Positions 10,016-61,971 of a stretch of DNA of 64,000 bases are shown here, piece by piece; the stretch's first letter is position 1; each line of letters opens with the position of its first letter. This DNA comes from Nitrosococcus halophilus Nc 4. Its GTDB lineage: Bacteria; Pseudomonadota; Gammaproteobacteria; Nitrosococcales; Nitrosococcaceae. The notes under the pieces are model-generated. The model did not search any database. It had not been told where the DNA came from and was given only the letters and a program-made list of their open reading frames with translations. The position numbers were made by a program, and so were the translations under genes. The stretch covers positions 1,634,261 through 1,698,260 of the forward strand of contig NC_013960.1 of assembly GCF_000024725.1 (NCBI RefSeq). Direction: 5' to 3'.

Positions 10016-10033
10016 TGCGTGTTACCTCCGACC

Positions 10034-10210: not shown

Positions 10211-10260
10211 AACAACGCCCTGAAATTCCTTTTATGTAACCTATTCAAACGAGCCCTATT

Positions 10261-10467: not shown

Positions 10468-10495
10468 ATTTTTTCTCCCCTTCCAGAGCCGACGA

Positions 10496-11083: not shown

Positions 11084-11098
11084 GGGGATTTCCTCCTC

Positions 11099-14092: not shown

Positions 14093-14157
14093 TGACCTCT
14101 TCTCCTATTCAATAAAAGGAAAACCGGCTTCCCCTATACACTTGACGAAATGGGTCC

Positions 14158-14367
14158 TCAGAAGCGTGCCTTTTGGTAGTATTTCTGAATGTGGGGGGTG
14201 ACATGGTAGCCCTTTGGCTGGCTTTCATGATGAGCCCTTTTTTCCTCGGGCATCATTGTGAGTTTCCCTTTAGCCGTGGTAGCCATTGCAGCCGCACCGG
14301 CAATAAGGGCGAGGCTTTTGAGAAATTGGCGCCGTTTTTTGGGGACGACTTCTAATTTGCTATTCAT
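14158..14367 (-). CDS. Formate dehydrogenase region TAT-target small protein
   Basis: A 69-residue protein starting at the ATG at 14365-14367. Residues KKRRQFLKSLALIAGAAAMATT form a twin-arginine signal, and the C-terminal segment GYHVTPHIQKYYQKARF is the hallmark of the small proteins found beside formate dehydrogenase genes (the formate_TAT family). A longer frame to 14616 overlaps the chaperone gene and has no support. Such proteins are thought to accompany export or assembly of the dehydrogenase, though the exact role is not established. Confidence 0.88.
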   Translation of the reverse strand: MNSKLEVVPKKRRQFLKSLALIAGAAAMATTAKGKLTMMPEEKRAHHESQPKGYHVTPHIQKYYQKARF

Positions 14368-14405
14368 GGAAATGCTTTCCTCGCTATTGGCTATACCAAT
14401 TTTGT

Positions 14406-15044
14406 TCACGCCGGGAGAAGCAGGTATTGTCTCTCTAGCTTGATAAACTGTTCTCCTAACTGACCCACAGGGCGATAGAAATGGGCTGAAGGAGCCATCT
14501 GAAGATCCCTGAAAAAGGTTTCCATCCAGGGTGAGAGGTGCTGGTTGAAAAACTGCTGTTGGGTAGCCAAGGTTATCTCCTCGGCGTTGCTGATGAGCAC
14601 TGCCATGGTTTCGCACAATGCCGCAACGTGATCCTCCGGTTCATTGACCCCGGGCTGGCGTTCAATGCCTAGTCGTGCTAGATCACGGCGCAATAGGGCC
14701 AAAGGCTTCTCCATCAGAAAGCCGGTCAAATACCAGGAACCGTAGGGCACCAGCTCGCCCCGGCCCAGTCCAATGAACAAGGCATGGTATTCATCATCCA
14801 CTTGGGCCCCCGTGCGACCTTCGGCGACTTGCTGGAGTTGGCGCCAAGTAGCAGCCATCTCCCCTTCAGCCGCGTCTGGAAGAGAAATTTCTTGCAGCAA
14901 CTTAAAAAGTTGAGGGCCTGGTGGGCCGACCAGCAAGGCTGCCAGCAAACCGTAGGTATTGGCGCGTATTTGATCAGGGGCTTGGCCACTAAGGCCTCTC
15001 TTACGGGCAGTGCAATCGGGGGCTAGGTTGGGTGGTCTATTCAT
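14406..15044 (-). CDS. TorD/DmsD-family chaperone for the dehydrogenase
   Basis: A 212-residue all-helical cytoplasmic chaperone expected to bind the TAT signal of the alpha subunit until the cofactor is loaded. The family signatures YGSWYLTG and NEPEDHVAALCETM are present. Its ATG overlaps the stop of the polyferredoxin by one base (TAATG), so the two are translationally coupled. Together with the TAT-target gene it forms the maturation block between the accessory Fe-S protein and the catalytic subunit. Confidence 0.92.
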   Translation of the reverse strand: MNRPPNLAPDCTARKRGLSGQAPDQIRANTYGLLAALLVGPPGPQLFKLLQEISLPDAAEGEMAATWRQLQQVAEGRTGAQVDDEYHALFIGLGRGELVPYGSWYLTGFLMEKPLALLRRDLARLGIERQPGVNEPEDHVAALCETMAVLISNAEEITLATQQQFFNQHLSPWMETFFRDLQMAPSAHFYRPVGQLGEQFIKLERQYLLLPA

Positions 15045-16717
15045 TACTTTGGGTAAAGATCTTTAACTCGACAGGTCTCGCACATTTGCAAACGCCGTAT
15101 GGCCTTCTCATCCTGGAACATCCAGTGACCTTTTAGCTTTTCCATCATCCTCGCTATCATCTTTTGGGTGGCAAAGGGTTTGCCGCATTCGATGCAGGCA
15201 AAGGGTTCCTCTTCATTCAGAACCCGTGTTTCCCTATTCCTTATGGATTCGTAGACCATCCGGGGAGAAAGTGCTATGGCATCTTCAGGGCAGGCTGCCT
15301 GGCACACACCGCATTGCACGCAATTAGCTTCTATAAACCGGAGCTGGGGTCTTTCGCCGCCGTCTAAGAGGGCTGATGCAGGGCAGACCGAAACACAGGC
15401 CAGGCACAGGGTACAGGTTTGCCGATCCACTTGGATTTCGCCAAAAGGAGCACCGGCGGGTAGCGGGATGATAGGTTGAGGGGCCGGTGCTTGTTGAAAG
15501 AGGTGTTCCACTGCCAGGCGGAGGGTGGTCCTTTTTTCATTAAAAGTAGCAAAGGAGGCGGGTTCTATTTCAGGACCCGACGGAAATGCTTGGAGGGTTT
15601 CCGTAGATTGAGGGTCGTCTTGGTGGATAAGAAGCTGTAAGCGCTGGGGTTCATAGCCCATTCCCTTAAGGATGGCGGTAGCGTAGCTCAGTTGAGCTTC
15701 AAGCGCTGTGAGTACGGAAGGGGCAGTGGCGGGGGTAGCCAACAGGATGACTTGGGAGGCACCATAGGCCAGCAGCGTCAGCCAGATGTCCATGCCCACC
15801 GACCCAATTTCTTCAACCTCAAAGGGAAGCACTTCTTCTGGGATTTGGGGAGCTAGGCGGGTAAAAGTTTCCGCACCTGTCTCCCGGTCATAAAATAACA
15901 CCCGGGCCTGAGTACCCCCTGCTTGACGATAGTGTTTGAGCATGGCACGGGCGGTGCTCAACAGTTCATCGACAGTAGGATAAGCATAGGTGATGGCCCC
16001 CGTTGGGCAGGCGGCGGTACAACTGCCGCCCCCCTGGCACAGGTAGGGATTGACTTGAATCTTGTCTCCCACGGAGGTGATGGCCAAGGTGGGACAGGCC
16101 TCTAAACAGCGGTTGCATCCTTGGAGTCCTTTTTGGCCATGGGCGCAAATACTGGGGTCATAATTAAAGAATTTAGGCTTTTCAAACTCGCCCACTAACC
16201 CTGGAATTTCATCAAGGGCCTGGGCAAGGGCTTGGGGATTATCCCTGGGCGCGTAATAGCCAGGGGGTAAAATCTCCTGCCCCAGTGAAGGGGAGAGCCT
16301 TAGATCTAGCACGAGATCAAAATGTGTTTGCCCCAGATGACACCGCTGGGCTAAATTGACTTCTCCCTGGGAAGTGGACAGGTTAACGGTAAATTGTCCT
16401 AAGTATCCCCTAAGGTTCCCTAGTTTCCCTCGGACTATCCGAATGCCATCCGTAGAGGAAAGGGAAATGCCGTTTTCGTAGGCCTTAAATGCATTGACAA
16501 GCACGGTACACTGGAGTTGATCCCTGAGCTGCTTGGCCAGTGCTAAAGCCTGTTTTTCGTCGCCAATAAGCAGCAAATGCCCAGTGGAGCGGTAAGAAAC
16601 GAAGGCAGTATGATGGGGGGCGTAGGCTGTACTGGCTTGTAAAGCGGCTGCGCGTGCTTGGCCCTTTGCCGTCTTCTCAGGCAATTTTAACGCCTGTTGT
16701 GGGGGGACAGGTGGCAT
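15044..16717 (-). CDS. Accessory polyferredoxin of the formate dehydrogenase operon
   Basis: A 557-residue cytoplasmic iron-sulfur protein. After a 190-residue N-terminal domain with no recognised motif come two ferredoxin cluster motifs (CNRCLEACPT; CQGGGSCTAACPTGAI), a middle domain resembling HdrA/MvhD-like regions, then two further motifs (CTLCLACVSVCPAS; CVQCGVCQAACPED) and a C-terminal CxxC pair (CIECGK, CETCRVK) resembling a zinc ribbon. Similar proteins occur beside DUF3305/DUF3306 genes in formate dehydrogenase operons of many proteobacteria. The precise electron partner is unknown; assembly or electron delivery is plausible. Confidence 0.85.
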   Translation of the reverse strand: MPPVPPQQALKLPEKTAKGQARAAALQASTAYAPHHTAFVSYRSTGHLLLIGDEKQALALAKQLRDQLQCTVLVNAFKAYENGISLSSTDGIRIVRGKLGNLRGYLGQFTVNLSTSQGEVNLAQRCHLGQTHFDLVLDLRLSPSLGQEILPPGYYAPRDNPQALAQALDEIPGLVGEFEKPKFFNYDPSICAHGQKGLQGCNRCLEACPTLAITSVGDKIQVNPYLCQGGGSCTAACPTGAITYAYPTVDELLSTARAMLKHYRQAGGTQARVLFYDRETGAETFTRLAPQIPEEVLPFEVEEIGSVGMDIWLTLLAYGASQVILLATPATAPSVLTALEAQLSYATAILKGMGYEPQRLQLLIHQDDPQSTETLQAFPSGPEIEPASFATFNEKRTTLRLAVEHLFQQAPAPQPIIPLPAGAPFGEIQVDRQTCTLCLACVSVCPASALLDGGERPQLRFIEANCVQCGVCQAACPEDAIALSPRMVYESIRNRETRVLNEEEPFACIECGKPFATQKMIARMMEKLKGHWMFQDEKAIRRLQMCETCRVKDLYPK

Positions 16718-18021: not shown

Positions 18022-18877
18022 GGTGGTGCTCAAAAAGTAATGCTTTGAGTTTGTGAAAACAGAGCGACTCCGTTGTAATAGGAAGCGACCAAACTTTCTT
18101 CACAAGGAGTCGCTCTGATGAACAACTTGCGTTGCCCACGTTGCGAATTATCGCACATTAAGAAAAACGGTCGCACCCACTACAGTAAACAAAATCACGC
18201 CTGTCTGAACTGCGGGCGGCAGTTTGTGGCCGACGCCCATCGTATTGACGAGACCACGCGCGCCTTGGTTAAAAAATTGCTGCTAGAGCGGCTGTCGTTG
18301 CGAGGCATTTGTCGGGTACTGGAGGTGAGTTTGACGTGGTTGCTGCAGTTTATCGATGAGCTATACGCGCACTTGCCTGATGACCTGGGTGTTCAATCGG
18401 TCTCACCCGATCGGGCCATTGAGATGTTTTGTTTAGAAGTCCAAGCCGATGAATTATGGAGCTTTGTTGGCTGTAAAGCGAACAAGCAATGGCTCTGGCT
18501 GGCGCTCGATCCCTGCTCGCGCCAAGTATTGGCCTTCTATGTTGGTGACCGCTCACGGGACAGTGCCCGTGAGCTGTGGCTACGCCTTCCGGCAAGCTAT
18601 CGCAAATACGCCACTTTTTCCACTGACGACTGGGAGGCCTATCGGGGCATTATTCCCCCAGCGCAGCATCAAGTGTGTCCCAAGGGCTCGGGGCAAACCA
18701 ATGCCATCGAACGGTTTAACTGCACCTTGCGTCAGCGCGTCTCGCGCTTGGTTCGTCAAACCCTTTCATTTTCGAAAAAACTGGCCAACCACATCGGGGC
18801 AATCAAATTCTTTATTTGTCATTACAACCAAGAAGTTATACGACAACCCTGAGCAGCATTACTTTTTGAGCACTACC
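18022..18877 (+). mobile_element. IS1-family insertion sequence, copy 1 (intact)
   Basis: An 856-bp element bounded by inverted repeats of 23 bases (18022-18044 and 18855-18877, one mismatch) starting GGTGGTGCTC at the left and GGTAGTGCTC when read from the right. It encodes one transposase and is nearly identical to the copy at 20208-21156, in the opposite orientation. The right flank CAATATTA (18878-18885) repeats next to copy 2, not copy 1. Both copies therefore exchanged flanks. Confidence 0.93.
18118..18852 (+). CDS. IS1-family transposase, single reading frame
   Basis: A 244-residue DDE transposase. The N-terminus is a zinc-ribbon (CPRCELSHIKKNGRTHY then CLNCGRQF), equivalent to InsA, joined in one frame to the catalytic InsB-like part with ADELWSFVG, FSTDDWEAYRG and GSGQTNAIERFNCTLRQRVSRLVR carrying the acidic residues. 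Classical IS1 uses a frameshift between two frames, so this belongs to a single-frame branch of the family. It appears intact and could also act on the damaged copy 2. Confidence 0.92.
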   Translation: MNNLRCPRCELSHIKKNGRTHYSKQNHACLNCGRQFVADAHRIDETTRALVKKLLLERLSLRGICRVLEVSLTWLLQFIDELYAHLPDDLGVQSVSPDRAIEMFCLEVQADELWSFVGCKANKQWLWLALDPCSRQVLAFYVGDRSRDSARELWLRLPASYRKYATFSTDDWEAYRGIIPPAQHQVCPKGSGQTNAIERFNCTLRQRVSRLVRQTLSFSKKLANHIGAIKFFICHYNQEVIRQP

Positions 18878-19870: not shown

Positions 19871-20200
19871 ATGGACAAACATTTAAATTCGCCAAACATA
19901 GAAAAAAAAACTCAAGTAGATTCTGAAGAAAACCGCGCAGAAGCTCGCCGTAAGTTTCTAAAAACGGCAGGCAAATTTGCCCTTTATACCCCACCCGCCT
20001 TAATGCTGCTGATGCATCCTAGTGTGCATGCCATCAGTAAATCAGGAGGAGGAAATAGGCCGGATGGTCCCCCGCCTGGTTTCAATCACGTACCTGGATC
20101 TGGTAATCCGGGCAACCGGGGTGGCTTCAATCATGTACGTGGACAGGCATTAGGGGATCGGGGACCTGGTAATCCGGGTAACCGCGGTGGCTTCAAGTAA
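19871..20200 (+). CDS. TAT-exported Gly/Asn/Pro-rich repeat peptide, possible precursor
   Basis: A 109-residue protein with a strong ribosome site (AAGGAGG, ATG at 19871). Residues 26-31 are RRKFLK, followed by a hydrophobic run (FALYTPPALMLLM) and a likely cleavage after SVHA (residue 54), a twin-arginine signal. The mature 55 residues hold no cysteine and are built of repeats: GFNHVPG-SGNPGNRG (70-84) and GFNHVRG...GPGNPGNRG (85-106), ending GFK. In the arrangement before the inversion it follows the nucleotidyltransferase and the PqqD-HprK kinase on one strand. Small TAT-type proteins next to such kinases recur in proteobacteria, but I know of no assigned function. A modified or exported peptide is inference. 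Confidence 0.75.
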   Translation: MDKHLNSPNIEKKTQVDSEENRAEARRKFLKTAGKFALYTPPALMLLMHPSVHAISKSGGGNRPDGPPPGFNHVPGSGNPGNRGGFNHVRGQALGDRGPGNPGNRGGFK

Positions 20201-20207
20201 ACAGTTT
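20200..20207. repeat. Other half of the exchanged target duplication
   Basis: Immediately left of IS copy 2; reverse complement AAACTGTT pairs with AAACTGTG at 18014-18021. Confidence 0.8.
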
Positions 20208-20232
20208 GGTAGTGCTCAAAAAGTAATGCTGC

Positions 20233-21060
20233 TCAGGGTTGTCGTATAACTTCTTGGTTGTAATGACAAATAAAGAATTTGATTGCCCCGATGTGGTTGG
20301 CCAGTTTTTTCGAAAATGAAAGGGTTTGACGAACCAAGCGCGAGACGCGCTGACGCAAGGTGCAGTTAAACCGTTCGATGGCATTGGTTTGCCCCGAGCC
20401 CTTGGGACACACTTGATGCTGCGCTGGGGGAATAATGCCCCGATAGGCCTCCCAGTCGTCAGTGGAAAAAGTGGCGTATTTGCGATAGCTTGCCGGAAGG
20501 CGTAGCCACAGCTCACGGGCACTGTCCCGTGAGCGGTCACCAACATAGAAGGCCAATACTTGGCGCGAGCAGGGATCGAGCGCCAGCCAGAGCCATTGCT
20601 TGTTCGCTTTACAGCCAACAAAGCTCCATAATTCATCGGCTTGGACTTCTAAACAAAACATCTCAATGGCCCGATCGGGTGAGACCGATTGAACACCCAG
20701 GTCATCAGGCAAGTGCGCGTATAGCTCATCGATAAACTGCAGCAACCACGTCAAACTCACCTCCAGTACCCGACAAATGCCTCGCAACGACAGCCGCTCT
20801 AGCAGCAATTTTTTAATACCAATTTCATGTAATTTTGCACTGTATAGGTCTAATTTAAACAAACACTTACAACCTTAATAAATTGCATTCTTTTGTTAAA
20901 TTGGTATAACCAAGGCGCGCGTGGTCTCGTCAATACGATGGGCGTCGGCCACAAACTGCCGCCCGCAGTTCAGACAGGCGTGATTTTGTTTACTGTAGTG
21001 GGTGCGACCGTTTTTCTTAATGTGCGATAATTCGCAACGTGGGCAACGCAAGTTGTTCAT
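20233..21060 (-). pseudogene. IS1-family transposase interrupted by MITE
   Basis: Same transposase as at 18118-18852, but the gene is cut after the ALVK/LLLERL region by the MITE at 20817-20906 (duplicated target TAA). The remaining open frame to 20862 lacks the zinc-ribbon N-terminus, so this copy is probably inactive; copy 1 could supply transposase. Confidence 0.9.
20817..20906. mobile_element. 90-bp MITE, copy A
   Basis: Non-coding 90-bp element with terminal inverted repeats TACCAATTT / AAATTGGTA, flanked by TAA at 20814-20816 and 20907-20909. It lies in the transposase gene of IS copy 2, so it arrived after that IS. Two further copies of equal length occur at 60461 and 62655. The 3-bp TNA duplication matches the target habit of IS5-family (IS1031-type) elements, which may mobilise it. 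Confidence 0.92.
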
Positions 21061-40991: not shown

Positions 40992-46106
<5,115 letters not shown>

Positions 46107-46110
<4 letters not shown>

Positions 46111-47504
46111 CCCTCAATGTTCTTGGCAGCCTCAAGCCGATCTCCAATGAGCCGCTCTACCTCGGCCACGGCCTGGTGGTAATCCGTCAGGGCGCGCAGG
46201 TATTGGGATTTGGAATCAAATAAAGTTCGTTGTGCATCTAAGACGCTCAAAAAATCGAACTTGCCCAAGCGAAAACCTTTATTAACCGCATCAAAGGCGC
46301 TTTGCGCCCCCGGAAGGACCTGGGTTTTAAGGGCTGTGGCCTCGGCATGGGCTGTAGCCAAGCGCTGGTAGGCGTTATTCAAGGCCGTGGCTACCCGCAC
46401 CTGCGTAGCCCGTCGATTTTCCGCTGCTTTGGTCAGTTGGCGCTCTGCCGCTAGGATGTTGCCCTGGTTCCGGTCGAATAGCATCAAGGGAATAGAAATG
46501 CCGGCCACAAGGGTATAATCCCCCGTGTCGGCATATTCAGTTCCTCCAAAGCTCACCGTAAGATCAGGAATGGCCTTGCTTTTTTCCAAATCAATGAGGG
46601 CTTGGCGCTGAGCAATTTCGGTCGCCCACCGGGCAAGGTCAGGATTTTGATTGATCAGTTGGGCTAGCTGTTCCAAGGAGGGGATAGGGGAGACCTCACT
46701 CAGCTGGCCGACGGCTTTCTGAAAGCCGGGTGTGATACTTCCCCAGGTAGCAGCTAGTTGTTTTCTAGCGGCTTCGAGATCCCGCTCAGCACGGGTAAGC
46801 TCAATGCGAACCGAAGAAAGGGCCACTTGGGCTTTGGTTTCTTCCACGGGCGAGGTTCTGCCGGCCTGGACCCGTTTAGAGACTGTGGTTGCCACTTGCT
46901 CAGCAAGGCGCACCAGTTGTTGCGCTAGAGCCAGTTTTTCTTGGGCACTCAATACTGCGACAAAGGATTGCGTGACTTGGGTGAGCACATCGACTCGCTT
47001 GGCCTCGTAATCCCAGCCAGCTAACTCCTGGGTAAGCTGGGCGGTTTTAACTCTTTTCTCAATTTTGCCACCTAGAAGAATGAGTTGGCTGAGTTGCACC
47101 GTGGTTGAGGGGCCATCGAAACTTTTGAGCCTGGAATTGCCCAGATTGGAGCCTTGGATGTTGAGTTGAGGGTTGGGTAACAAGCCGGCTTGGAGTACCG
47201 CTGCTTCCCGCGCCCGGATCTCTTGGGAAAAAGCGGCTAACTGTGGATTTTGGAGTAGAGCCAGGGCTGCCACCTTTTGCAATTTGATATCCCCGCTGGG
47301 TTCGTTGTTTTCAGCCGGGAGGGGCGGGGAAGTCTCTTTATATTTGCGGAGCAGTGGAGTTTGTGCCAAGGACTGGGTCACCGAAATTTGATCTAAGGGG
47401 GCGGAATCTGACTCCGCAGCAGCAGGAGAATAAGCGCGGCATCCCACCGCGAGTACAAGTAGGATTGCCAACAATAAGATTGTTGAAAGGGGTTTGGAAA
47501 GCAT
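46107..47504 (-). CDS. Outer-membrane efflux channel, CusC/CzcC (TolC) family
   Basis: A 465-residue outer-membrane protein with a lipoprotein signal (LLLAILLVLAVGC). The paired coiled-coil repeats of the TolC family are visible: RVDVLTQVTQSFVAVLSAQEKLALAQQL and AENRRATQVRVATALNNAYQRLATAHAEATALK. It forms the exit channel of the C-B-A efflux operon. The stop overlaps the adaptor ATG. Confidence 0.92.
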
Positions 47505-47627: not shown

Positions 47628-48128
47628 TTAATTCAGAAGGACAGTCGTGCGTAAGTGAAGGGGGATAGCGGGGATCTCGGGTGGCGGCTGGCCTAAATGG
47701 TGTGGGCGTGCGAGCTCTGCCAAAGCAGGAAATGGGGGAGCAGTCGTTAGAAAAGAGAAAGCCGGGGAGGCTTTAGTTTCTTTGCTATCGATTTTTTTAC
47801 TGGTCGTGAGGGTGGGGTGCTCATCCTGGGGAAGTTGAATCACATGGTCGGAATAGTCATGGTCCGCCCGGACATCCAAAGCCGATAGGGCCTTATCAAG
47901 CAGGTCATGCTGATAGGCCTCCAAAGAAGTCGTAGCTACGGGTTCGTGTTGGTCTACATAACCAGGATGGTGGAGGGCGATTTGGATCTTATCGCCGTGG
48001 TAGGTCAAGAATATTTTATGGGCGTGGCCAACGCTTGCAAGCAATAGGGGAATAGCCTGGGCACTGCCTACCCAAGTCAGCAGGTAGAGCAGCAGGCAGA
48101 AACAACCGATAAGCCGTCGTTTATTCAT
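47628..48128 (-). CDS. Secreted His/Asp-rich small protein upstream of the efflux operon
   Basis: A 166-residue protein. ATG at 48126-48128 gives a signal peptide (RLIGCFCLLLYLLTWVGSAQA); the upstream frame to 48227 overlaps the porin gene. The mature part is rich in histidine and aspartate (GHAHK, ALHHPGYVDQHE, DVRADHDYSDHV, RPHHLGQP), consistent with binding divalent metals. It sits 124 bases upstream of the efflux channel gene and could sense or buffer the metal. I do not recognise a family. Confidence 0.6.
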   Translation of the reverse strand: MNKRRLIGCFCLLLYLLTWVGSAQAIPLLLASVGHAHKIFLTYHGDKIQIALHHPGYVDQHEPVATTSLEAYQHDLLDKALSALDVRADHDYSDHVIQLPQDEHPTLTTSKKIDSKETKASPAFSFLTTAPPFPALAELARPHHLGQPPPEIPAIPLHLRTTVLLN

Positions 48129-48150: not shown

Positions 48151-50418
48151 TCAGAACTGATAGGCGAGTGAGACGCCGAAGATATGGGCGACATAATCGG
48201 GACTGGTGGAACCGAGGGTAAGCACAAAGGGCATTGTGTCTAAATCAATATCGTCCCGGGCGAAGTCTTCCGTCTCTAGGGTTTCAAAGCGGTAGCTAAA
48301 GCGTGCGGAGAGATTATTCCTGAGTTGGTAGTCTAAGCCCACCATAATTCGATGCAACCGGGTCTCCAATTCGGGCAAGGGCGCAGCAGTCAAAGCAGAT
48401 CCCCCGGTGGGCTTGAGGTGGGTATCAGCTAGGGAGAAGGTATAGTCTATTCCTAACTCCAGTTTATCTTCGATGAGGGTCCAGTCCAAGCCGATACCGC
48501 TGGTCAGCACTTCATCCTCGGTATCCATTGACCACCGCTGGGCCAGATTGGTCAAAGAGGGTAGCCTGACAGGATTGTGCTCATGTCCCCTTTGTTCGTA
48601 GCGCAGGTTTTCATAGGTAAAGAACGCATACCCCATAATGCCTGGCCGTGGGCTGTAAGAGGCGTCTACGGTGGCGCTCGCGATCCGGCTGTGTTTGAGA
48701 CCGAACACAGTCTTTTTATAGTCATCTTGGATGTAGTTGCCGTCGAGGCCGAGGGTGATCTGGTCGTGAGGGAGAAAAGTGACCACCCCGCGGACCCAGT
48801 TCCGTTCTCGCTCCGCAAGATGAAATTTTCTCAAGCTGGGATGGTTCCCAAACCGCTCCTCAGGGGGCAATGTGGCCAGGAAAGCAGGCGTGTGGCTACT
48901 CAAAAATGCAGCATTGTCCGCGTAGTCCGAGCCATCGCGGAAGGCATGGGCATATTGGAGCCAGCCATTGACGAAATCAAAAGGTGTAGCCTGCACTTTG
49001 GTGCGTATGGTATGTTCCTGTACCTTATTTTTTTCCTGAAAATCCCGCTCTTGTTGCTCGAAATCATACCCCAGCATGAGCTTGGTGCGAGGGAGGAGAC
49101 GGTAGCCTGCATCTAGGGAGACCTGGTGTTGCTCAAAGCTATAGGGCAGGTTGAGCCTAGCGTTAGCATTGGCAATCCCTGTGGGTTGAGGCTGGGCGTC
49201 ACCGGCAATCCGGACATAAATATCCCGCGGGGTTTTGTTATCCCGTTCCTCAAAACGGTAATTGGCTTTGAAATCCAGCTTGGGTAAGGGACGGGAGGCA
49301 ATCCCCAGGTCGATAAGAAAGGTGTCGATGCGCCCCTCTAGGGAGTTTCTTGGCAAGGGAGTGGTGACCGTAGCATTCAGGGCCGGCATGGCTGAAAAAG
49401 GCAGAAAGTTCTCATCCTGGGTCATTCGGCTATAGGCGAGGTTGGTTCTTATTCGCGTGGTTAACCCCAAATTATAACCCGCCGAAAAAGTCACCTGGTG
49501 AGCCTGATTATCGGGAGGCAGGGCGAACTGCCCAAAGCCGGAAGGAAAGCCGGTCGCAGGTGTCCAGGGCGCCCCCCGGCCCGCTTCTGAGTAGGGGTTT
49601 TGAAAATTCAGAGCCGCTTCGTCGTTATGGAATAGGGAGAGGGCATAAGTGAGTTGGAATTGGGCTTTTTTACCCAGGTATTCGAGGGAGAGGTTCAAAC
49701 TATTGGTTTGATAGTCAATGGGTTCCGGGAGGATGACCGCCGAAGGGTTACCCCCGTTAATGCCGAAAGCGCCAGCAATCGTGTCTAGGCCATCCTTACG
49801 CTCATGGTGAAAGTCGGCCTTTAAGGCCCAGTCTTTGGCCAGGTGCCAGGTCAGTCCCCCGCCAAATTTTTGCCGTTCGGTTTCTATCTCCAAGAATTTC
49901 AAACTTTCCCCTAAGGCAGTCATGCCCTGGGTCGTGGGAGCGCCGACCCACCCCTCTGATAGAGTCAATTGCCCACTGCCAATCCCGTTGTAAGGCGTTT
50001 GGGCTTTATCAGAGGGAAATCCAGCTTGGAAGTGGGGAATCTGGTCATAATCCAAAAACAGTTCGTAGCGACCCTGGTCTCCGTAAGCTAGAGAGAGGGA
50101 TCGATAGTCAAGGCCCAGGTTCAGACCTGATACCTCGAAGTAGTGAGCACGGCCACTGTCGTAAGCATCCCGTCCTTGGAGCCTGAAATTGGCGATGGCA
50201 AAGGGTCCTTCTTCTACCAGCCCTGTATACTCACCGAACTTGAAGGAATTTTCGCTGTTATAGCCAATTCCCACTTCCACTTCGCCCCTATAAAGGAGAG
50301 CCGGTGTTTTCTCTTTGAATTTCTCTAGCGCAAATCCTTCCTCTTGGGCAGCCGTTTCCATCATGAACAAGTAGGGGGTCCATAGGGCCAAGTACACCAG
50401 ACTTTTTCTACGCTTCAC
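48151..50418 (-). CDS. MtrB/PioB-family decaheme-associated outer-membrane barrel
   Basis: A 755-residue predicted beta-barrel that would sheath the adjacent decaheme cytochrome across the outer membrane. A GTG at 50418 preceded by GAGGGC is favoured over a TTG at 50439. After the signal region (LVYLALWTPYLFMMETAAQ) the protein shows the alternating hydrophobic pattern and a terminal aromatic residue (FGVSLAYQF) of barrel proteins, and the recurring YxxxxDxxxHxxx-like strands of MtrB/PioB. No N-terminal CXXC is apparent. It follows directly on the cytochrome gene, so the two should form an electron conduit. Confidence 0.88.
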   Translation of the reverse strand: MKRRKSLVYLALWTPYLFMMETAAQEEGFALEKFKEKTPALLYRGEVEVGIGYNSENSFKFGEYTGLVEEGPFAIANFRLQGRDAYDSGRAHYFEVSGLNLGLDYRSLSLAYGDQGRYELFLDYDQIPHFQAGFPSDKAQTPYNGIGSGQLTLSEGWVGAPTTQGMTALGESLKFLEIETERQKFGGGLTWHLAKDWALKADFHHERKDGLDTIAGAFGINGGNPSAVILPEPIDYQTNSLNLSLEYLGKKAQFQLTYALSLFHNDEAALNFQNPYSEAGRGAPWTPATGFPSGFGQFALPPDNQAHQVTFSAGYNLGLTTRIRTNLAYSRMTQDENFLPFSAMPALNATVTTPLPRNSLEGRIDTFLIDLGIASRPLPKLDFKANYRFEERDNKTPRDIYVRIAGDAQPQPTGIANANARLNLPYSFEQHQVSLDAGYRLLPRTKLMLGYDFEQQERDFQEKNKVQEHTIRTKVQATPFDFVNGWLQYAHAFRDGSDYADNAAFLSSHTPAFLATLPPEERFGNHPSLRKFHLAERERNWVRGVVTFLPHDQITLGLDGNYIQDDYKKTVFGLKHSRIASATVDASYSPRPGIMGYAFFTYENLRYEQRGHEHNPVRLPSLTNLAQRWSMDTEDEVLTSGIGLDWTLIEDKLELGIDYTFSLADTHLKPTGGSALTAAPLPELETRLHRIMVGLDYQLRNNLSARFSYRFETLETEDFARDDIDLDTMPFVLTLGSTSPDYVAHIFGVSLAYQF

Positions 50419-50471
50419 TGGAGTGCCCTCTGTCTTCAAACCTCAAAACGAAGCTGCCTCTCCCCTATAGG

Positions 50472-51410
50472 CTAGCGCATTAACCGAACCCCGGAAGGAT
50501 GGTTTGAACCATGGACCTGGGCGTGGCAGTTCAAGCACCCCTTCAACAAGAGCCGATCCGCCACTCCCCTTGGTGGGACGCCCGTGCCACTATAAAGGGT
50601 GCTGGGATGAAAGGCTTCCATATGACATTGCTGGCAGAGCCAAGGGGTTCTGACCTTGAGTAACCTGGGCTGAGTAGTGCCATGGGGGGCATGGCAGTGG
50701 CGACAATCTTCTCGCACTGGGGCATGCTCCCATAGAAAAGGTCCCCGCTTTTCAGGATGGCAGAGGTAGCAGGTTTCATTGACCGTCGCCTTGAGCAATA
50801 GTTTGGGTCCAAAGGAACCATGGGGATTATGGCAGTCGCTACAGGCCACCTTGCCTTCCTCGATGGGGTGGTGTGAAAAGCGACGGACCTGAGCCCTTTG
50901 GGGGCCGTGGCAGTCATAACAAACTTCTGGCTGGGACGCCTTAATCTGCACCTTGTCCTGCCAAGCGTGTATCTGGTGGCAGGCGGCGCAGGCCACATCG
51001 GCAAATTGATGCGAGCTTCCCTGCCAGTTTATTCTTTCTCCTCCCTCATGGCAGTTGAGGCAAACTTGGTTCTGCTCGGCGACTGAGGTTGGCGAGTGGG
51101 GGCCAAATCGGACTGGAATCGTTTCCTTCCGAGGGCTTTTAAGGTGTTCAGTGCCGGGTCCATGGCAGCTTTCACAGCCATGGGCAGCAAAAGGGGTTCG
51201 TGGATCGGCTTGTTGTGCATGGGGCGTTTGCAAAATCACAGTCACCGACGGATTTTGGTGGCAGCCGGTACAGGACTCTACGCCGCGCTCGGTATACTGG
51301 GCCTTGGGGAGGTTGGCGCTCGGCGCTTCTTCCGCTATAGCGATTTGAGCAATTATTAAACTAACTAGTAATGCTCGCAATACGCTGGTAGCCACGGAAA
51401 GTAAGTGCAT
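50472..51410 (-). CDS. Decaheme cytochrome c, MtrA/DmsE family
   Basis: A 312-residue periplasmic cytochrome with exactly ten CXXCH motifs (first CTGCH, then CESCH, CLNCH, CAACH, CYDCH, CSDCH, CYLCH, CRHCH, CQQCH and CLNCH). ATG at 51408-51410 opens a signal sequence ending AQIAIAEE. The motif spacing is that of the MtrA/DmsE/PioA line that threads through an MtrB barrel. It is upstream of the barrel by 53 bases. Direction of electron flow (respiration to an extracellular acceptor or oxidation of an extracellular donor such as Fe(II)) cannot be told. Confidence 0.93.
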   Translation of the reverse strand: MHLLSVATSVLRALLVSLIIAQIAIAEEAPSANLPKAQYTERGVESCTGCHQNPSVTVILQTPHAQQADPRTPFAAHGCESCHGPGTEHLKSPRKETIPVRFGPHSPTSVAEQNQVCLNCHEGGERINWQGSSHQFADVACAACHQIHAWQDKVQIKASQPEVCYDCHGPQRAQVRRFSHHPIEEGKVACSDCHNPHGSFGPKLLLKATVNETCYLCHPEKRGPFLWEHAPVREDCRHCHAPHGTTQPRLLKVRTPWLCQQCHMEAFHPSTLYSGTGVPPRGVADRLLLKGCLNCHAQVHGSNHPSGVRLMR

Positions 51411-52159
51411 GGGGTATTTTCTCCAGCAGGATTGCCCTGGGACAATCAAAAAAATTTTTATTTTTTGTTATTGGGGATTGGTTAATTTATATCTAGTCGC
51501 TGATGAGCTTCTAATCAAGCTGCCAAATTAACAATTAAGGATTGTGGCATGATGATCAGCAGAGAACAGCAACGGTACTCCTGGCCGGTCTTCTCAATCA
51601 AAAAGGCCCGTGAGGCGACTCAAGTTTTGATGGGGGAAGGATTAATTCCTAGAGCACCAGAGCATTAACGGTAGTGATTTGGAAATAGAAGAACGAGATC
51701 CTTTGATTTGATAATGGAGGACCTTTGGCTTATACGAGCCAGCATGGACCACAGCCTTTGAGTTCATTGGAGGAAGCAATCTTGGCATTCGCTGCGACCG
51801 GAATTACTGGTTTCTGCTTGGGAGAAAGGAAACAGCAACATGGCGTACTTGCAGATTGGTTGAGAGTGGAAAAAAGATCCTTGAGCTCTCCATCAAAATT
51901 CCTAGGCCTGGTCCTCGAAAGGAGCGTAACGTCAAAACATTCACGGTTTTGGAAAAGCAATTATTAACCACTGAGTTAAATATGCAAGCCTCAATGCAAT
52001 CAACGCGACATCCAAAGGCAGTTCAATTAACATTAGGCAGCCATCCCTATGGTGAGGAAATAAGAACCTGGGTTATAGAAACCCGGTTTTATACGCATAT
52101 GCAGATCAGTCTCGATGCAGCTTATCGCTCTGAACCCCTTCAGATAGCAAAGTAAGCGT
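51411..52159. other. Region with degraded coding remnants
   Basis: No intact gene. A 39-codon frame at 51549-51668 has no clear ribosome site. At 51725-51967, plus strand, the frame LSSLEEAILAFAATGITGF resembles the start of nitroreductase-like proteins but quickly loses sense. An overlapping 99-codon frame (51856-52155) is not recognised. I read this as old coding debris between the decaheme and cytochrome-LysM genes. A possible promoter for the cytochrome operon is not obvious. Confidence 0.35.
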
Positions 52160-52873
52160 TTATGAGTTCTTGGGCGCAGGAGGAAGAGTTAGCTCCATTC
52201 CTACGCTTATGATGTTAGGGTCCTTAATCTTGTCCCGGTTGGCTTCATAGATAAGAGGCCATTGAGTGGGATCACCGTAGGCCCGCTCAGCGATGAGAGA
52301 TAAGGTATCATCCTGCTGGACAATCACTGTCTTGGCTGCTGGAGATACTTCAGCCTGTTTCAGTTCTTCCTCTCCTTTCTCCACTCGTGGTGTAGCGGCT
52401 ACCTCAGGCTGCTTGGGGGCAGGCACCGGCTCCCCATCAGGAGGTGTTGTTGCCACCGGAGCCCAGGGATGCAAGATTTGAAGGTAGACTACCAGTGTGT
52501 CCAGGTCTTCCGGCTTGAGTTCGCGATAGCGCTGTTTTCTCTCGCGAACGCCTTCCGGTAGCCGTTTCGCTACTTCTTTTGCACCGATGATCCACTTGCG
52601 GATCTCGTCCCCGGATCGGTGTGCACCTACATTGTCTAGTGGTGCGCGTGGATTACCGATACCAGCAATGCTGTGACAGAAGGCGCAGCCCTGAGCCTCG
52701 TAAACAGCTTTGCCGCGAGCGATGCGCTTAGCCAGGGTATTGGTGGAGGTAGGTGTTGTCGTGGGTGCAGGTACAGGCGCGGATGGGTTCTGAATCCACG
52801 CGAAGGTGAAGGCTAGCAGGAGGACAAATGCTGCCACCAGGGCAGCGATCCAATGTGCTAGTTGCTCGCGCAT
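52160..52873 (-). CDS. Cytochrome c domain joined to LysM domain
   Basis: A 237-residue membrane-anchored protein. The N-terminus is a membrane helix (WIAALVAAFVLLLAFTFAW), followed by a Pro/Thr linker, a class I cytochrome c domain with CAFCH and PRAPLDNVGAHRSGDEIRKWI, another Pro/Glu-rich linker and a C-terminal LysM domain (TLSLIAERAYGDPTQWPLIYEANRDKIKDP). The LysM should hold the haem domain on peptidoglycan. It lies 8 bases after the flavoprotein gene, so it may carry electrons from that enzyme. I do not know an experimentally described protein with this domain order. Confidence 0.85.
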   Translation of the reverse strand: MREQLAHWIAALVAAFVLLLAFTFAWIQNPSAPVPAPTTTPTSTNTLAKRIARGKAVYEAQGCAFCHSIAGIGNPRAPLDNVGAHRSGDEIRKWIIGAKEVAKRLPEGVRERKQRYRELKPEDLDTLVVYLQILHPWAPVATTPPDGEPVPAPKQPEVAATPRVEKGEEELKQAEVSPAAKTVIVQQDDTLSLIAERAYGDPTQWPLIYEANRDKIKDPNIISVGMELTLPPAPKNS

Positions 52874-52881
52874 ACCTTTTT

Positions 52882-54201
52882 CTACACTAGCTCAAATAGC
52901 TCAAAATGCACCTGGGCAAGGGGCACTCCGCTTCTATACAGGGTGCGTTGGACCGCTTCGCTCATGGGTTTGGGTCCGCACAAAAAATAGTGCAACTCAC
53001 GATGGTTTTGCGGCAGCCTTCGTTGCAAGAGGGCGTCGGTAATTCGCCCCCGTTCGCCGGTCCACTCCGGCGGCGGCTTCTCGATCACATGTACCACTGA
53101 GATATTGAGGCGCTCCCTTAGATGTTCCAATTCATCTCGGAAGATGACGTTCTCCCAGTAGAGGTTGGCATAGATAAGGTGTAAGGGACGGGAGTCCCCT
53201 CGGTCCGCGAGCGTTCTCAGCATGCTCATTATCGGGGTAATGCCTATGCCTCCCGCAATGAACGCAAAGCCTACTGCCTGGGGGTACCTGTCCACGCTGA
53301 ATACACCATAGGGACCATCCACATAGGCAATCTCCCCTGCTGTAACCTGGGGGATGGTGCGCGTGAAATCTCCCCGCGCCTTGATGGTGAACTCTAACCG
53401 CTTGCTTCGTTTGGCGCTGGAAGAGAACGAGAAAGGATGCTCCTCGAAGCGAAAGGGGGATCTCCCAAGGGTGAGCCAGGCGAACTGTCCTGGTTGGAAA
53501 TTCATACCAGGGTGGCTTTCCGGTTCGAGCGCGACGGTCCAAGCCTGCCCCCGTTCGGGCCGGACTGCTATGACCCGGTAAGGTGCCCTTGATAGCAACC
53601 AAGGCTTGAGCACCCGTACGTAGCCGACCAGCCCTACCCAGAACAAGGTGTATGCTATCCACAACCATTGTTTCCAAGGTGCCCGAGTATAATAGCCTAC
53701 GCCGGCGATGTGCACGACAGCCAAAATAAAGGCCAATGTGGCCAGTAGCGCATGCAGAATGCGCCAATACTTGTAATTGATCCCCAATGGCTTACGCCAT
53801 AGGGAGGTCACGATTACCACGATAAAGAGCACGAAGGCGGTTCGTCCGGCGGTCATGTAACCGGGCGCCTGAAGCGGATTGAGTACTCCTAGCGCCGCAG
53901 GATAGGCAACCCACAAGATGGCGAAGTGGAGGAGGAGAAAACCCATGCCGATGATCGCCACTAGACGGTGGAAGTAGTAAATAATGTCTATTCCAAAAGG
54001 CGCAGTCGTCCGCCGAAAGCGGGCAGTGAGGGCAAATTGTATACCCATGATTGCCATGCCGCCGAACCCGAGCGCCATGGAAAAATCCCACCACAATCCG
54101 GCGCCAGGCGGCACCGGCCCGATTAGCAGGAGCGGTAAGGGGGCGGAAACGAGAACTAGGTAGATACCAATCCACAGGAGAGCGCGGGCAAGGGTTTTCA
54201 T
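52882..54201 (-). CDS. Ferric-reductase-like membrane flavocytochrome
   Basis: A 439-residue membrane oxidoreductase. Five to six helices (LARALLWIGIYLVLVSAPLPLLL through HALLATLAFILAVVHIAG) carry histidine pairs (YYFHRLVAII, LLLHFAIL, RILHALL, VVHIAG) for two haems. The C-terminal half is a ferredoxin-NADP reductase-type domain with HPFSFSSSA (FAD), FIAGGIGITPIMSML and YFLCGPKPM (NAD(P)H). It should move electrons from cytoplasmic NAD(P)H across the inner membrane. Immediately followed by the cytochrome-LysM gene, it could supply electrons to the decaheme-porin conduit 1-2 kb downstream. Confidence 0.9.
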   Translation of the reverse strand: MKTLARALLWIGIYLVLVSAPLPLLLIGPVPPGAGLWWDFSMALGFGGMAIMGIQFALTARFRRTTAPFGIDIIYYFHRLVAIIGMGFLLLHFAILWVAYPAALGVLNPLQAPGYMTAGRTAFVLFIVVIVTSLWRKPLGINYKYWRILHALLATLAFILAVVHIAGVGYYTRAPWKQWLWIAYTLFWVGLVGYVRVLKPWLLSRAPYRVIAVRPERGQAWTVALEPESHPGMNFQPGQFAWLTLGRSPFRFEEHPFSFSSSAKRSKRLEFTIKARGDFTRTIPQVTAGEIAYVDGPYGVFSVDRYPQAVGFAFIAGGIGITPIMSMLRTLADRGDSRPLHLIYANLYWENVIFRDELEHLRERLNISVVHVIEKPPPEWTGERGRITDALLQRRLPQNHRELHYFLCGPKPMSEAVQRTLYRSGVPLAQVHFELFELV

Positions 54202-54439: not shown

Positions 54440-54934
54440 TTAACTGGTTCGCAAACGCCGCCTGGCCAAGATAAGCGAAACGCTCACTGAAATAAGCAGG
54501 GCGGCTAGGGTGAGCTCGAGTAATAAGAAGGCGCTAATCTTGAAATAGGCAAATGCCGGGTGGACGAAGCGCACTAGCCAACCGCCGGCTTCATTAGCCA
54601 CTGCGGCAAAAAAGGTCAGGCCGGAGAGCCAAATTTTGAGAGAAGCGGGAAGTTCCGTAAACAGCATCAGATGAGCTAAGGTGAGCACCAGAATACCCAT
54701 GGAAAAAAGATGGAAGTGGGACACCTCTAGCAAGCTTTGGTAGCTAATGGGTCGGGTGAAGTCTTCTTCCGAGCCCAAGTAATAATCCACTACAGAGCTA
54801 GGCGTTAAACCCATTTGGTGGAAATACATCAATCCATTGCTGACCCAAAGGAGAGCAATGTAGCCCAGGAAAAGCAGGATAAGGGTATTTAATAGGGCAC
54901 GGCGGCGGTGGTCTCTAGGGGCAAAAAAACGCAT
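54440..54934 (-). CDS. Four-helix membrane protein, unknown
   Basis: A 164-residue inner-membrane protein. Four hydrophobic segments are seen: LNTLILLFLGYIALLWVSNGL, FHLFSMGILVLTLAHLMLFTEL, LKIWLSGLTFFAAVANEAGGWL and FKISAFLLLELTLAALLISVSVSL. Histidines in EVSHFHLFSMG and LAHLML could bind haem b. It is found 238 bases from the flavocytochrome gene, upstream of it. A quinol or haem role is only a guess. Confidence 0.6.
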   Translation of the reverse strand: MRFFAPRDHRRRALLNTLILLFLGYIALLWVSNGLMYFHQMGLTPSSVVDYYLGSEEDFTRPISYQSLLEVSHFHLFSMGILVLTLAHLMLFTELPASLKIWLSGLTFFAAVANEAGGWLVRFVHPAFAYFKISAFLLLELTLAALLISVSVSLILARRRLRTS

Positions 54935-55011
54935 AGGTATTCCTCCCTCTCCTCTGCAATGCTCAGTCGAAGTGGTGCAGGTCCGCTGTTCTTCCTGTCT
55001 GCCCCCTTTCT

Positions 55012-55677
55012 CTAGAAGGATTGTCCTGTAAGTTGGTAATACTGGGCTTCAACCCAGCGTTGCACATTAGGATGAGGGAGCGGCGGCTGGCCAAAGTGGA
55101 AAGTCAGCCCCTTAAGATCGTTTCGGATTGCCCCCTCGATTCCCCCTGCAGAAAGCAACACAGGAATGACTACGGCTTTGCCATGGTAGCTCGCCTCCTG
55201 AGCAGCGGTGCGGAAAGCTTCCCGGGCTCTAGCCCTGATCGCCTCCGGGGCATCGGTTCTATGGGTGAGGTAACGCACCTCGTGGAACCTCCCCTGGCGA
55301 TGAAGGTAATGGGCATGGGTAGCAAGGTCTTCGAGCCAACGACGGTTCTCTTCCTCGGTATTAGGGCCATGGGCGATCAGAATGACCGTGGTCTTTTCGG
55401 GTGATGTCCCCATCGCCAAGGCCCGCTCTAAGAGGATTTCGCTAACGAGTGGGTGATCATCCATGGCTTTGCCGAAGGCCACTTCAGTGGGAAATTTTTC
55501 ATTGAGTTGCTCGGCCAACCGTGCCACGTTCTTATTCCACAGAGTGCTCCGCTGACTGGGTTCGGGTTCTACGCCATGGGCGAGGAGCAGAAGTCCCCCG
55601 TGTTCTTGCGCAGGCGTTGCAGCACTGCAGAACAGAAGAACCAGAAAAAGCCAACAATGTATTGTTTTCTGTATCAT
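55012..55677 (-). CDS. Exported chelatase-like protein, CbiX/CbiK type
   Basis: A 221-residue protein that resembles sirohydrochlorin cobalt/iron chelatases: LLLLAHGVEPEP carries the metal-binding histidine of the first strand, VILIAHGPN the second, and FRTAAQEASYHGKAVVIPVLLSAGG the conserved helix and strand. It has a clear signal peptide (TIHCWLFLVLLFCSAATPAQEHG), so the mature protein is periplasmic, unlike cytoplasmic CbiX. It may deliver metal to a periplasmic protein or be a receptor of altered function. The next gene downstream on the strand is the four-helix membrane protein. Confidence 0.8.
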   Translation of the reverse strand: MIQKTIHCWLFLVLLFCSAATPAQEHGGLLLLAHGVEPEPSQRSTLWNKNVARLAEQLNEKFPTEVAFGKAMDDHPLVSEILLERALAMGTSPEKTTVILIAHGPNTEEENRRWLEDLATHAHYLHRQGRFHEVRYLTHRTDAPEAIRARAREAFRTAAQEASYHGKAVVIPVLLSAGGIEGAIRNDLKGLTFHFGQPPLPHPNVQRWVEAQYYQLTGQSF

Positions 55678-59382: not shown

Positions 59383-61971
59383 ATGAACACAAATACCTCG
59401 ACACAGACAGCGTTGGCTGGAAATTCACCCCAGGCGAAAGATCTTGAGACCCTCCAAATCAAAATTGGGGGGATGTCTTGTTCCTTTTGTACTGAGACTA
59501 TCCGCAAAGCCTTTCTCCAACTGGAAGGGGTAGAAAAAGTTCATATAGGCCTGTCTCACGAAGAAGCGCTCATCCGGTACGATCCGGCAAAGCAGTCTCC
59601 GGCTGAGCTACGTAATACCTTGCGTAGTTTGGGCTACACAGTCCGGGATCCGGACAAATTGCGCGCCTACGAGGAGCAGGAAGAAGAACTGCGCCAGGAG
59701 CGCCGGCGGCTGAGTTGGGCCGGGAGTTTTACCGGCATAGCGGCCGTGATCATGGTCCTCATGTGGTTAGGGTACCCCCAGTTCTGGTTTAAATGGCTCA
59801 TGTTGGCCTTGGCACTAGGCACCGTCTTCGGACCGGGGAGGTATATCCTGAAGATGGCCTACCATGCCTTGCGGCGGGGCATTCTCAACCAACATGTTTT
59901 GCTTGAATTGGCTGCCTTTGCGGGTTTGGCCGGAGGATTTTTAGGGCTAATCGGCTTCTTGCTCCAGGTGCCTGCCTTTGAAGGGTTCCCCATTCCGGAT
60001 TTTTTTGGGGTGGCGACCTTCGTCACCACTTACCATATTCTTTCCAGTTACACCGCCAAGCGGGTCAAGGCCCGCGCCTCCCTAAGCGTGCGTAAGTTAT
60101 TAGCGCTGCAACCCGCTACCGCCTGGTTAATCCGGGACGGCGAAGAGATCGAGGTTTCCGTAGAGGAGATCCAGCCTGGAGATCGGGTTCGAGTGCGACC
60201 GGGAGAAAGTATTCCTGTTGATGGCCAGATCGTGGAGGGCGCCTCCGGCATTGATGAGAGCATCGTCACCGGCGAATCCCTCCCCGTGGAAAAGACAGTC
60301 GGCGAAGAAGTTATCGGGGGAGCGATTAATCAAACGGGAACCTTAGTCATCCAGGTTACGCGGGTGGGTGCGGAGAGCTTTCTGCAACAGGTGGCCCATT
60401 ATATTGAAGAGGCCCGGGCCATGAAGCCGGGCCTGCTGCAGTTGGTGGATGTGGTGCTCATACCAATTTCATGTAATTTTGCATTGTATAAGTTCAGTCT
60501 AAACAATTGCTTGAAGCCTTAATAGATTGCACTCTTTGATTAAATTGGTATCAAATATTATGTCCCTGGGGTAGTGGCTTTTGGCTGGCTGGCCTTCCTT
60601 ATTTGGACTGCAGGCGCCTGGGGGATGACTGGCGAGATGAACATGGCACGGGCCCTCTTTGCCACCCTGGCAGTCTTTGTGATGGGCTATCCCTGTGCTT
60701 TGGGGATGGCTACTCCGCTGGCCCTGATCCGCGGTGGGGGGGAGGCCGCCGAGAAGGGGATCCTCATGCGTTCGGGGGAGGCCTTTCAAATCCTCAAAGA
60801 CATCCAGAAAATTGTTTTCGACAAGACCGGTACCCTCATGGTAGGGGAACCCCAAGTTGTCGATCTCGTGCCCCTTGGTGATCAGGATGGACAGACTCTG
60901 CTCCGCCTAGGTGCAGCGGTGGAAAAATCCTCTGAGCATCCGTTGGCCCGGGCTATTGTGGAGCGAGCCGAGGAAGAACAACTCAAGTTTCCCGAGGTCC
61001 GAGACTTCCAGGCCACTCCTGGCAAGGGAGCTCGGGCTTTAGTGGATGGCCGTCTGAGCTATGTGGGTAATTTACGTTTTTTGGAGGAGGAAGGGGTGGT
61101 GATCCAGGCGGGTTGGGACCAAGCTAAAGCCCTGGAGGAAGCTGGGAAGACGGTAGTGGGTATCGCTACAAGGGGGGATCTCATGGGCCTTATTGCCATC
61201 GCGGATCGGATCAAACCGGACGCAAAGGTCGCGGTTCGCCAACTAAAAGAGATAGGGATAGAACCGGTAATGATCACGGGCGATAATTGGCGTACGGCTC
61301 AGGCGGTGGCAGCGGAATTGGGGATCGACACGGTGCAGGCTGAGGTGTTGCCGGATCAAAAGGCCCAAGCGGTACGAAAGCTGCAAGCTCAGGGCACCCG
61401 GGTGGCGATGGTGGGGGACGGGATCAACGATGCCCCGGCTCTGATGCAGGCCGATGTGGGTATCGCCATCGGTGCCGGTACCGATATCGCCATCGAATCC
61501 TCAGATGTCATCTTGGTTGGTGAACGGTTGACAGCGGTGGTCGAGGTCTTTCATATTGGGCGTAGCGCCTACCGAAAAACTGCCCAGAACTTAATGTTGG
61601 CTTTTGCCTTCAACGGGGTCGGAGTGCCGGTAGCCACCACCGGTTGGGTGCATCCTGTGTGGGCCATGATCGCCATGGTGGCCAGTGTCTCTACGATCCT
61701 GCTCAATTCTTTCCTAGGCCGGTTACTTCCTAAGCCGAGGGAAGCCCAGTGCGAGCAATCTGAGGTGCACACGCTGGAACTCCACATTCCGTCGATGCAT
61801 TGTGAAAGTTGCCTAAACGCTATTACCCAGGCTGTGACTCAATTCCCGGAAGTGCTAGAGGTCCAAGGCGATTTAAAAAAGAAAATCGTCTCCATTCGCT
61901 ATCAGGAAGATCATGCCGCACCGGATCGGATTCGACGGGTTATCGATGAAGTTGGTTTTCCCGCAGGCTAA
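59383..61971 (+). pseudogene. Heavy-metal P-type ATPase interrupted by a MITE
   Basis: A CopA/ZntA-like ATPase of 831 residues when the MITE is removed. The N-terminal half has an HMA domain ([16 protein letters not shown]), membrane helices and the actuator TGES ([14 protein letters not shown]). The MITE at 60461-60550 plus the duplicated TCA brings stop codons in frame. Excision restores VVLKYYVPGVVAFGWLAFL. The second half has the ion-path motif GYPCALG, phosphorylation motif DKTGTLMVG, nucleotide-binding ATPGKGARA and MVGDGINDAPAL, and a C-terminal HMA (SMHCESC). As it stands two truncated pieces could be made; full activity is unlikely. Confidence 0.93.
60461..60550. mobile_element. 90-bp MITE, copy B
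   Basis: Same length and ends as copy A, flanked by TCA (60458-60460 and 60551-60553). It lies in the P-type ATPase gene before the third membrane pair and adds 31 codons with three in-frame stops. Confidence 0.93.

Follow-up and report, generated by a model that had tools for sequence, protein, structure and literature searches.

Two gene pairs on one strand

The DNA considered here is a window of 64,000 nt from Nitrosococcus halophilus Nc 4 (NC_013960.1), and all positions without another locus name are coordinates of this window. Four genes on its minus strand are at issue: an mtrB-like and an mtrA-like gene, which form an outer-membrane electron conduit of known type, and, upstream of them, the genes of a membrane-anchored cytochrome c and of a flavocytochrome b. 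The host genome (4,145,260 bases in two contigs, the larger of 4,079,427) also harbors a hao cluster (L184), read as haoA-haoB-cycA-cycB with gene names assigned by eye, and the organism is therefore an ammonia oxidizer; CycB of this cluster is a NapC/NirT-family protein (PF03264, E 2.2e-45). The four genes probably represent two redox units of separate inheritance that have become neighbours by chance: a bare MtrAB conduit on the one hand and, on the other, a flavocytochrome/cytochrome c unit leading from NAD(P)H to the periplasm.

The mtrA-like gene (50472-51449) encodes a periplasmic decaheme cytochrome c of the MtrA/DmsE family (325 aa) with a signal peptide judged by eye. It contains 26 histidines in total and ten CXXCH motifs; shuffling its residues 20,000 times gave 0.10 such motifs on average and never more than 3. 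The protein matches TIGR03508 with E 2.6e-91 (306 bits, cut-off 192) and aligns over residues 47-324 to chain A of PDB entry 6r2q (E 3.1e-81), which we take to be the Shewanella MtrCAB structure, its chains being labelled otherwise in the copy used. The mtrB-like gene (48151-50439) encodes a cysteine-free outer-membrane barrel of 762 aa, a member of the MtrB/PioB family that matches TIGR03509 (E 1.7e-152, 509 bits, cut-off 240), the whole of PF11854 (E 1.5e-162, 543 bits, cut-off 23) and, over residues 52-761, chain B of the same PDB entry (E 3.1e-69). The decaheme MtrA-like cytochrome and the MtrB-like barrel recognized in the initial annotation are thus borne out, the latter as a full-length protein. 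MtrA, housed within MtrB, would serve as the path of electrons between periplasm and cell surface.

The flavoprotein (52882-54201, 439 aa) is a flavocytochrome b of the NOX/ferric-reductase type, composed of a ferric-reductase membrane domain (PF01794), an FAD domain (PF08022) and an NAD(P)H domain (PF00175), which agrees with its earlier description as NAD(P)H-linked and ferric-reductase-like. Two H-x13-H pairs are found at residues 78/92 and 150/164, and an alignment of ten flavoproteins (the window's own and nine relatives) shows no variation in these four histidines, which occupy heme-ligand positions, or in an HPFS motif; the protein thereby has the four membrane histidines and both the FAD and the NAD(P)H domain that characterize the NOX/FRE flavocytochromes. 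Among solved structures, the soluble reductase domain 1tvc gives the lowest E-value (6.4e-20), and 8qt6 (residues 46-429, E 1.7e-17), presumably SpNOX, is the best full-length match.

Only 8 bp separate the stop of the flavoprotein from the start of the cytochrome c gene (52160-52873, 237 aa), whose product carries one CXXCH in a NorC-like domain (PF00034), a membrane anchor assigned by eye and a C-terminal LysM domain (PF01476). The match of the heme domain to NorC (3o0r_C) is weak (E 3.4e-4); the protein shares with NorC the monoheme c domain and the anchor but differs from it by its LysM tail, and no NorB was seen beside it. Among solved LysM domains, the one of potassium-binding Kbp comes nearest (7pvc, E 3.1e-5). 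In six places of the genus the tail is 66-70% identical to stretches of frames of 1,071-1,106 residues, and one of these frames of about 1,100 residues that was scanned (in L037) proved to be a cation P-type ATPase ending in a LysM; the tail therefore looks like a fusion that may have arisen within the genus. The peptidoglycan binding claimed for this cytochrome at the outset is only a possibility, suggested by the LysM domain.

As to how the second pair might work, the flavoprotein would oxidize NAD(P)H in the cytoplasm and, following the logic of its domains, would pass the electrons to FAD and then to the two b-hemes across the inner membrane, from which they would reach the adjacent membrane-anchored cytochrome c. 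On the periplasmic side, MtrAB probably exchanges electrons with the general pool of c-type cytochromes, which CycB would fill, rather than with the neighbouring flavoprotein. For both units, we infer the direction of electron flow, the partners and the physiological role.

Distribution of the flavocytochrome and MtrAB pairs

The initial annotation had joined the two pairs by their closeness and had suggested that the joint reading would fall if the pairs never co-occurred in other genomes. Co-occurrence was analyzed in two draws of genomes. The class draw comprised 369 genomes including the host's own, with thresholds of E <=1e-40 for the flavoprotein and E <=1e-10 for MtrB; the flavoprotein was found in 7, MtrB in 29 and both in the own genome and in G070, where they are located on different contigs (C57 and C14 respectively). 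The phylum draw comprised 397 genomes, again including the own one (flavoprotein E <=1e-60, PF11854 E <=1e-20), and gave the flavoprotein in 7, PF11854 in 24 and both in the own genome only. When the own genome is excluded, co-occurrence amounts to 1/368 against 0.46 expected in the class draw (Fisher p 0.38) and to 0/396 against 0.35 expected in the phylum draw (Fisher p 1.0), so that, in these small numbers, the above-chance co-occurrence that a single flavocytochrome-MtrAB conduit would call for was not observed. The absence of co-occurrence elsewhere is nearly complete, G070 with its two separate contigs being the one exception, and the comparison does not support the proposed link between the pairs, which may still be connected in function within this one species; furthermore, G074 possesses the flavoprotein/cytochrome c pair in a genome where MtrB is absent.

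The flavoprotein and its cytochrome c, conversely, do appear to belong together. Relatives with more than 50% identity to the flavoprotein were found in three genomes of the class and phylum draws (G074 63%, G070 54% and G091 51%), and in all three a c-type cytochrome gene lies directly downstream after a gap of 2-66 bp. This cytochrome is monoheme in G074 and G070, where it is 46% and 38% identical to that of the window over the first 134-151 residues of the latter and has no LysM domain, and it is a class III cytochrome with four CXXCH in G091. In the class draw, the three nearest relatives (51-63%) all lack MtrAB beside them. One further locus (L045) was excluded from the relatives since it matches over the reductase half only, and the best matches in the three other Nitrosococcus genomes searched (G001-G003) are likewise confined to this half; a scan of genome contigs with the flavoprotein gave two loci.

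The preference for two units is based on the chance-level co-occurrence, on the cytochrome pairing without MtrAB in close relatives and on the break of synteny upstream of mtrA in G003 (see below). The opposite reading, in which NAD(P)H electrons would run through the flavocytochrome and the LysM cytochrome c to MtrA/MtrB and on to the outside while bypassing the quinone pool, is highly unlikely. It draws on the adjacency of the pairs, their common strand and the plausible chain of redox carriers, on the LysM extension, which is missing from both monoheme relatives of the cytochrome, and on the presence of a look-alike flavoprotein with a cytochrome b5 near MtrAB in G332 and G415. It has against it the lack of any excess co-occurrence, the pair of G074 that exists without MtrB and the conserved block around mtrAB, which reaches the metal-efflux operon and not the flavoprotein. 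Additionally, an ammonia oxidizer obtains its NAD(P)H at high cost, and exporting electrons from NAD(P)H would be an odd thing for such an organism to do. Were it correct after all, which we consider most doubtful, electrons of cytosolic NAD(P)H would go straight into an MtrAB wire, as a quinone-independent extracellular electron transfer (EET) in an ammonia oxidizer, and G332 and G415, of an unrelated genus, may have reached a similar layout with a cytochrome b5.

Several observations weigh against the preferred reading of two units. The two pairs of the window share a strand, and no more than 710 bp lie between them. The co-occurrence test is weak, since each draw contains no more than six other genomes with the flavoprotein and the draws overlap (G405, for one). 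In G332 and G415, an anchored cytochrome b5 lies behind another ferric-reductase-type flavoprotein (L132 9463-11147 and L133 12585-14260; the assignment comes from PF00173 in the G332 protein). Moreover, 15 distant relatives of the flavoprotein (31-49% identity) have no recognizable c-type cytochrome directly behind them, in stretches often limited to 1.5 kb per side; since it was found in none of these relatives below 50%, the pairing with cytochrome c is confined to a narrow subgroup. In this count, a short CXXCH frame directly behind one flavoprotein (L051) was taken by eye for a ferredoxin and not counted as a cytochrome.

Concerning the first of these neighbourhoods, the flavoprotein profile was run on 57 MtrB stretches from 50 genomes, which extend up to about 8 kb per side and are in many cases cut by contig ends (second MtrB pieces in G107:C158 and G500:C184 were left out). 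Besides the window, a full-length relative of the flavoprotein was found near MtrB in G332 and G415 only, which belong to one genus, and this was also the case with a profile built without them; in two other stretches (L146 and L180) the match was restricted to the reductase half. In both genomes the flavoprotein/cytochrome b5 pair is on the strand opposite to MtrAB, adjoining it in G332 and about 4 kb off in G415. These two genomes give the only support elsewhere for a flavoprotein beside MtrAB and, coming from one genus, this can be chance.

The electron acceptor may also be a different one. The flavoprotein could be an NADPH oxidase or a ferric/cupric reductase acting on O2 or a metal, with the cytochrome c doing another job, a rather unlikely reading that is compatible with two units. 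It would account for the best full-length solved match, 8qt6, which we assumed to be SpNOX, for the distant relatives that have no recognizable c-type cytochrome directly behind them and for the MerR and heavy-metal ATPase genes nearby. It fits poorly with the cytochrome c genes located 2-66 bp behind the three closest relatives in the draws. Moreover, SpNOX itself is described as reducing cytochrome c directly without O2, with lower efficiency (PMC5676040).

The search was also extended to mobile DNA. The flavoprotein matches 426 plasmid records, 82 of them with one place that covers at least 80% of it, at a best identity of 45%; in the two plasmid neighbourhoods analyzed, which do not include that of the best match (Nonomuraea), no cytochrome c gene lies directly behind the flavoprotein relative. 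The viral contigs scanned contained no flavoprotein relative. With MtrB, the plasmid search gave a single record, a Photobacterium plasmid.

MtrAB without MtrC and its fate in the genus

The surface cytochrome MtrC/OmcA that completes an MtrCAB system was found in this genome neither with TIGR03507, which gave no match in a search of the whole genome that lacked an MtrC-bearing control, nor with PF22113, for which no protein of the genome exceeded the cut-off (the strongest hit, in a frame of 583 residues, had E 5.3e-4). For PF22113 the Photobacterium plasmid served as a positive control, with a match of E 1.2e-27 close to the MtrB of the plasmid. The absence of MtrC stated in the initial annotation thus extends genome-wide as far as these two families go.

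The neighbourhood of MtrA was compared in 55 rows (52 from other genomes, one from the Photobacterium plasmid and the two of this genome). A large multiheme protein (at least 450 residues and at least six CXXCH) lies within 9 kb of MtrA in 28 of them and only a two-, three- or four-heme cytochrome in 14, and no multiheme neighbour within this distance was seen in the other 13, including both own copies, a number that is an upper bound because many stretches stop at contig ends. Three loci (L137, L169 and L168) gave no MtrA row, the decaheme frame of L168 being above the 450-residue limit. In the MtrA tree, which omits two contigs (L086 and L054) that have MtrB but lack an MtrA frame, the MtrA of the window and that of the second copy fall into different groups, and the fork that holds the row of the window is weak (81/84).

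This second copy is an intact mtrAB pair at C2:1179766-1183120 (L037 7758-11223), with an MtrB 27% and an MtrA 47% identical to those of the window. Close to it, at L037 3204-6392, a cation P-type ATPase is encoded whose C-terminus carries a LysM. Both mtrAB copies consist of intact long frames with all ten CXXCH. An N-terminal CXXC in MtrB is said, after Wee et al. in 2014, to be a signature of metal-reducing Gammaproteobacteria. Of 57 relative loci at least 21 have it, a lower bound since the count covers the first 150 residues of MtrB frames longer than 400 residues without CXXCH and misses split genes; it is absent from both own copies, which have no cysteine in the MtrB of the window and one in that of the second copy.

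Among the four genomes of the genus searched, intact mtrAB is found in this one alone (0/3 in the others). G001 has no match to mtrA or mtrB, whereas G002 (L036 6844-10313) has a pair in which MtrA and MtrB are each split into two frames; judged by eye and by its neighbourhood, this pair seems orthologous to the second mtrAB copy. In the sister genome G003, what is left is a 37-residue stretch of the MtrB of the window (81% identity): 40 nt matching 51453-51492, just upstream of mtrA (37/40 identical), run into the last 45 or so mtrB codons, and beyond this junction the DNA is 92% identical to the window over 685 nt. The synteny between the window and G003 stops about 45 bp upstream of the mtrA frame, short of the flavoprotein pair. 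The conserved neighbour of mtrAB in G003 is a metal-efflux operon and not the flavoprotein. This operon (41522-47504, minus strand) lies downstream of mtrAB in the window, is 78-96% identical by tblastn to that of G003 (L035) and is taken here as of the cusCBA/czcCBA type, a name given from its sequence and general knowledge with no family search behind it. The location of mtrAB upstream of a metal-efflux operon, of which G003 keeps a trace, is an observation in its own right. The simplest reading of the junction would be that the common ancestor had mtrAB upstream of the efflux operon and that it was deleted in G003.

These differences suggest that the genus may be losing MtrAB. It is distinctly unlikely, although compatible with two units, that the mtrAB pair of the window is itself being lost and contributes little. 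The loss in G003 with its remnant and the broken apparent orthologue in G002 point in this direction, as does the report (PMC10415592) that the strain produced no more current than the control and showed no heme-peroxidase stain; the intactness of both copies, with all their heme motifs, speaks against it.

The same report presented the EET genes of N. halophilus Nc4 in 2023 as a full set, and its figure legend includes outer-membrane-anchored cytochromes (PMC10415592). The mtrAB genes are very probably the ones described there, and the conduit has thus very probably already been published for this strain, but no MtrC was found here, and the negative results of TIGR03507 and PF22113 conflict with the claim of a complete pathway that includes an outer-membrane cytochrome. 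The lack of a recognizable MtrC in the strain may help to explain its negative electrode result. The flavocytochrome pair is not discussed in sections 5-7 of that paper, and the term "Nitrosococcus" does not appear in the main text of a survey of Mtr systems (PMC8805035).

With respect to the known systems, the decaheme MtrA and the barrel MtrB of Shewanella MtrCAB are both matched here over nearly their full length, if 6r2q is taken as the Shewanella structure. Unlike in that system, there is no MtrC to be found in this genome, and the MtrB of the window has no N-terminal CXXC. PioAB and MtoAB share an MtrAB-type conduit without MtrC. PioA carries an N-terminal extension of about 200 residues (PMC6831781), which is absent from the 325-aa protein of the window, where the match to 6r2q chain A starts at residue 47. 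The flavoprotein shares with SpNOX and the ferric reductase superfamily the two-heme membrane domain with its four conserved histidines and the FAD and NAD(P)H domains, but differs in that its close subgroup is paired with a cytochrome c gene. The term "cytochrome c" is absent from the main text of a survey of this superfamily (PMC3591440), and no description of the flavoprotein/cytochrome c pair or of a LysM cytochrome was seen in literature listings whose coverage leaves out most subscription journals. The unit is a mild variation on a known type; a small NOX-type subgroup that travels with a dedicated c-type cytochrome would consist of NAD(P)H:periplasmic cytochrome c reductases and not of superoxide makers.

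The DNA between the pairs and the surrounding genes

The stretch that separates both pairs (51450-52159, 43% GC) contains no gene or relic recognized in sequence searches and has no second copy in the genome, on which ground a repeated mobile element was rejected. A relic of a lost third gene was rejected as well, the best blastp match to frames of relative MtrAB loci having E 0.10, and a 99-aa open reading frame (ORF) at 51856-52155 has no Pfam match. Scans for promoters and terminators gave 12 sites compared with 5.7 (standard deviation 2.1) in shuffles and 17 compared with 10.7 (standard deviation 3.2), respectively. They include a candidate promoter-like site before the flavoprotein (54417-54388, minus strand) and a weak terminator-like site behind the cytochrome (52084-52070, minus strand), which would fit two units; as consensus matches they are not counted as evidence.

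Between mtrB and the efflux operon, a conserved protein of 166 aa is encoded on the minus strand (47628-48128). The ORF listed at this locus has 199 aa, and its residues 34-199 are 90% identical to a 166-aa ORF of G003; its start is placed too early and the shorter form is favoured. Upstream of the flavoprotein and on the same strand, the stretch 54440-55677 encodes a small membrane protein that matched no family, as well as an exported CbiX-like protein (E 1.3e-4); for the 164-aa protein at 54440-54934, the plasmid search gave no match. Further away, at 59383-61971 on the plus strand, a heavy-metal P-type ATPase is found in two ORFs split in the middle of the E1-E2 domain, probably an interrupted gene.

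The rest of the window shows other features identified by eye. A ribonucleotide reductase-like protein (2018-5437, minus strand) seems to hold an intein, and two near-identical transposase-like copies in opposite orientation (18118-18852 on the plus strand and 20193-20862 on the minus strand) flank a short stretch. Finally, an apparent formate dehydrogenase gene cluster lies at 8954-16717 on the minus strand of this ammonia oxidizer.

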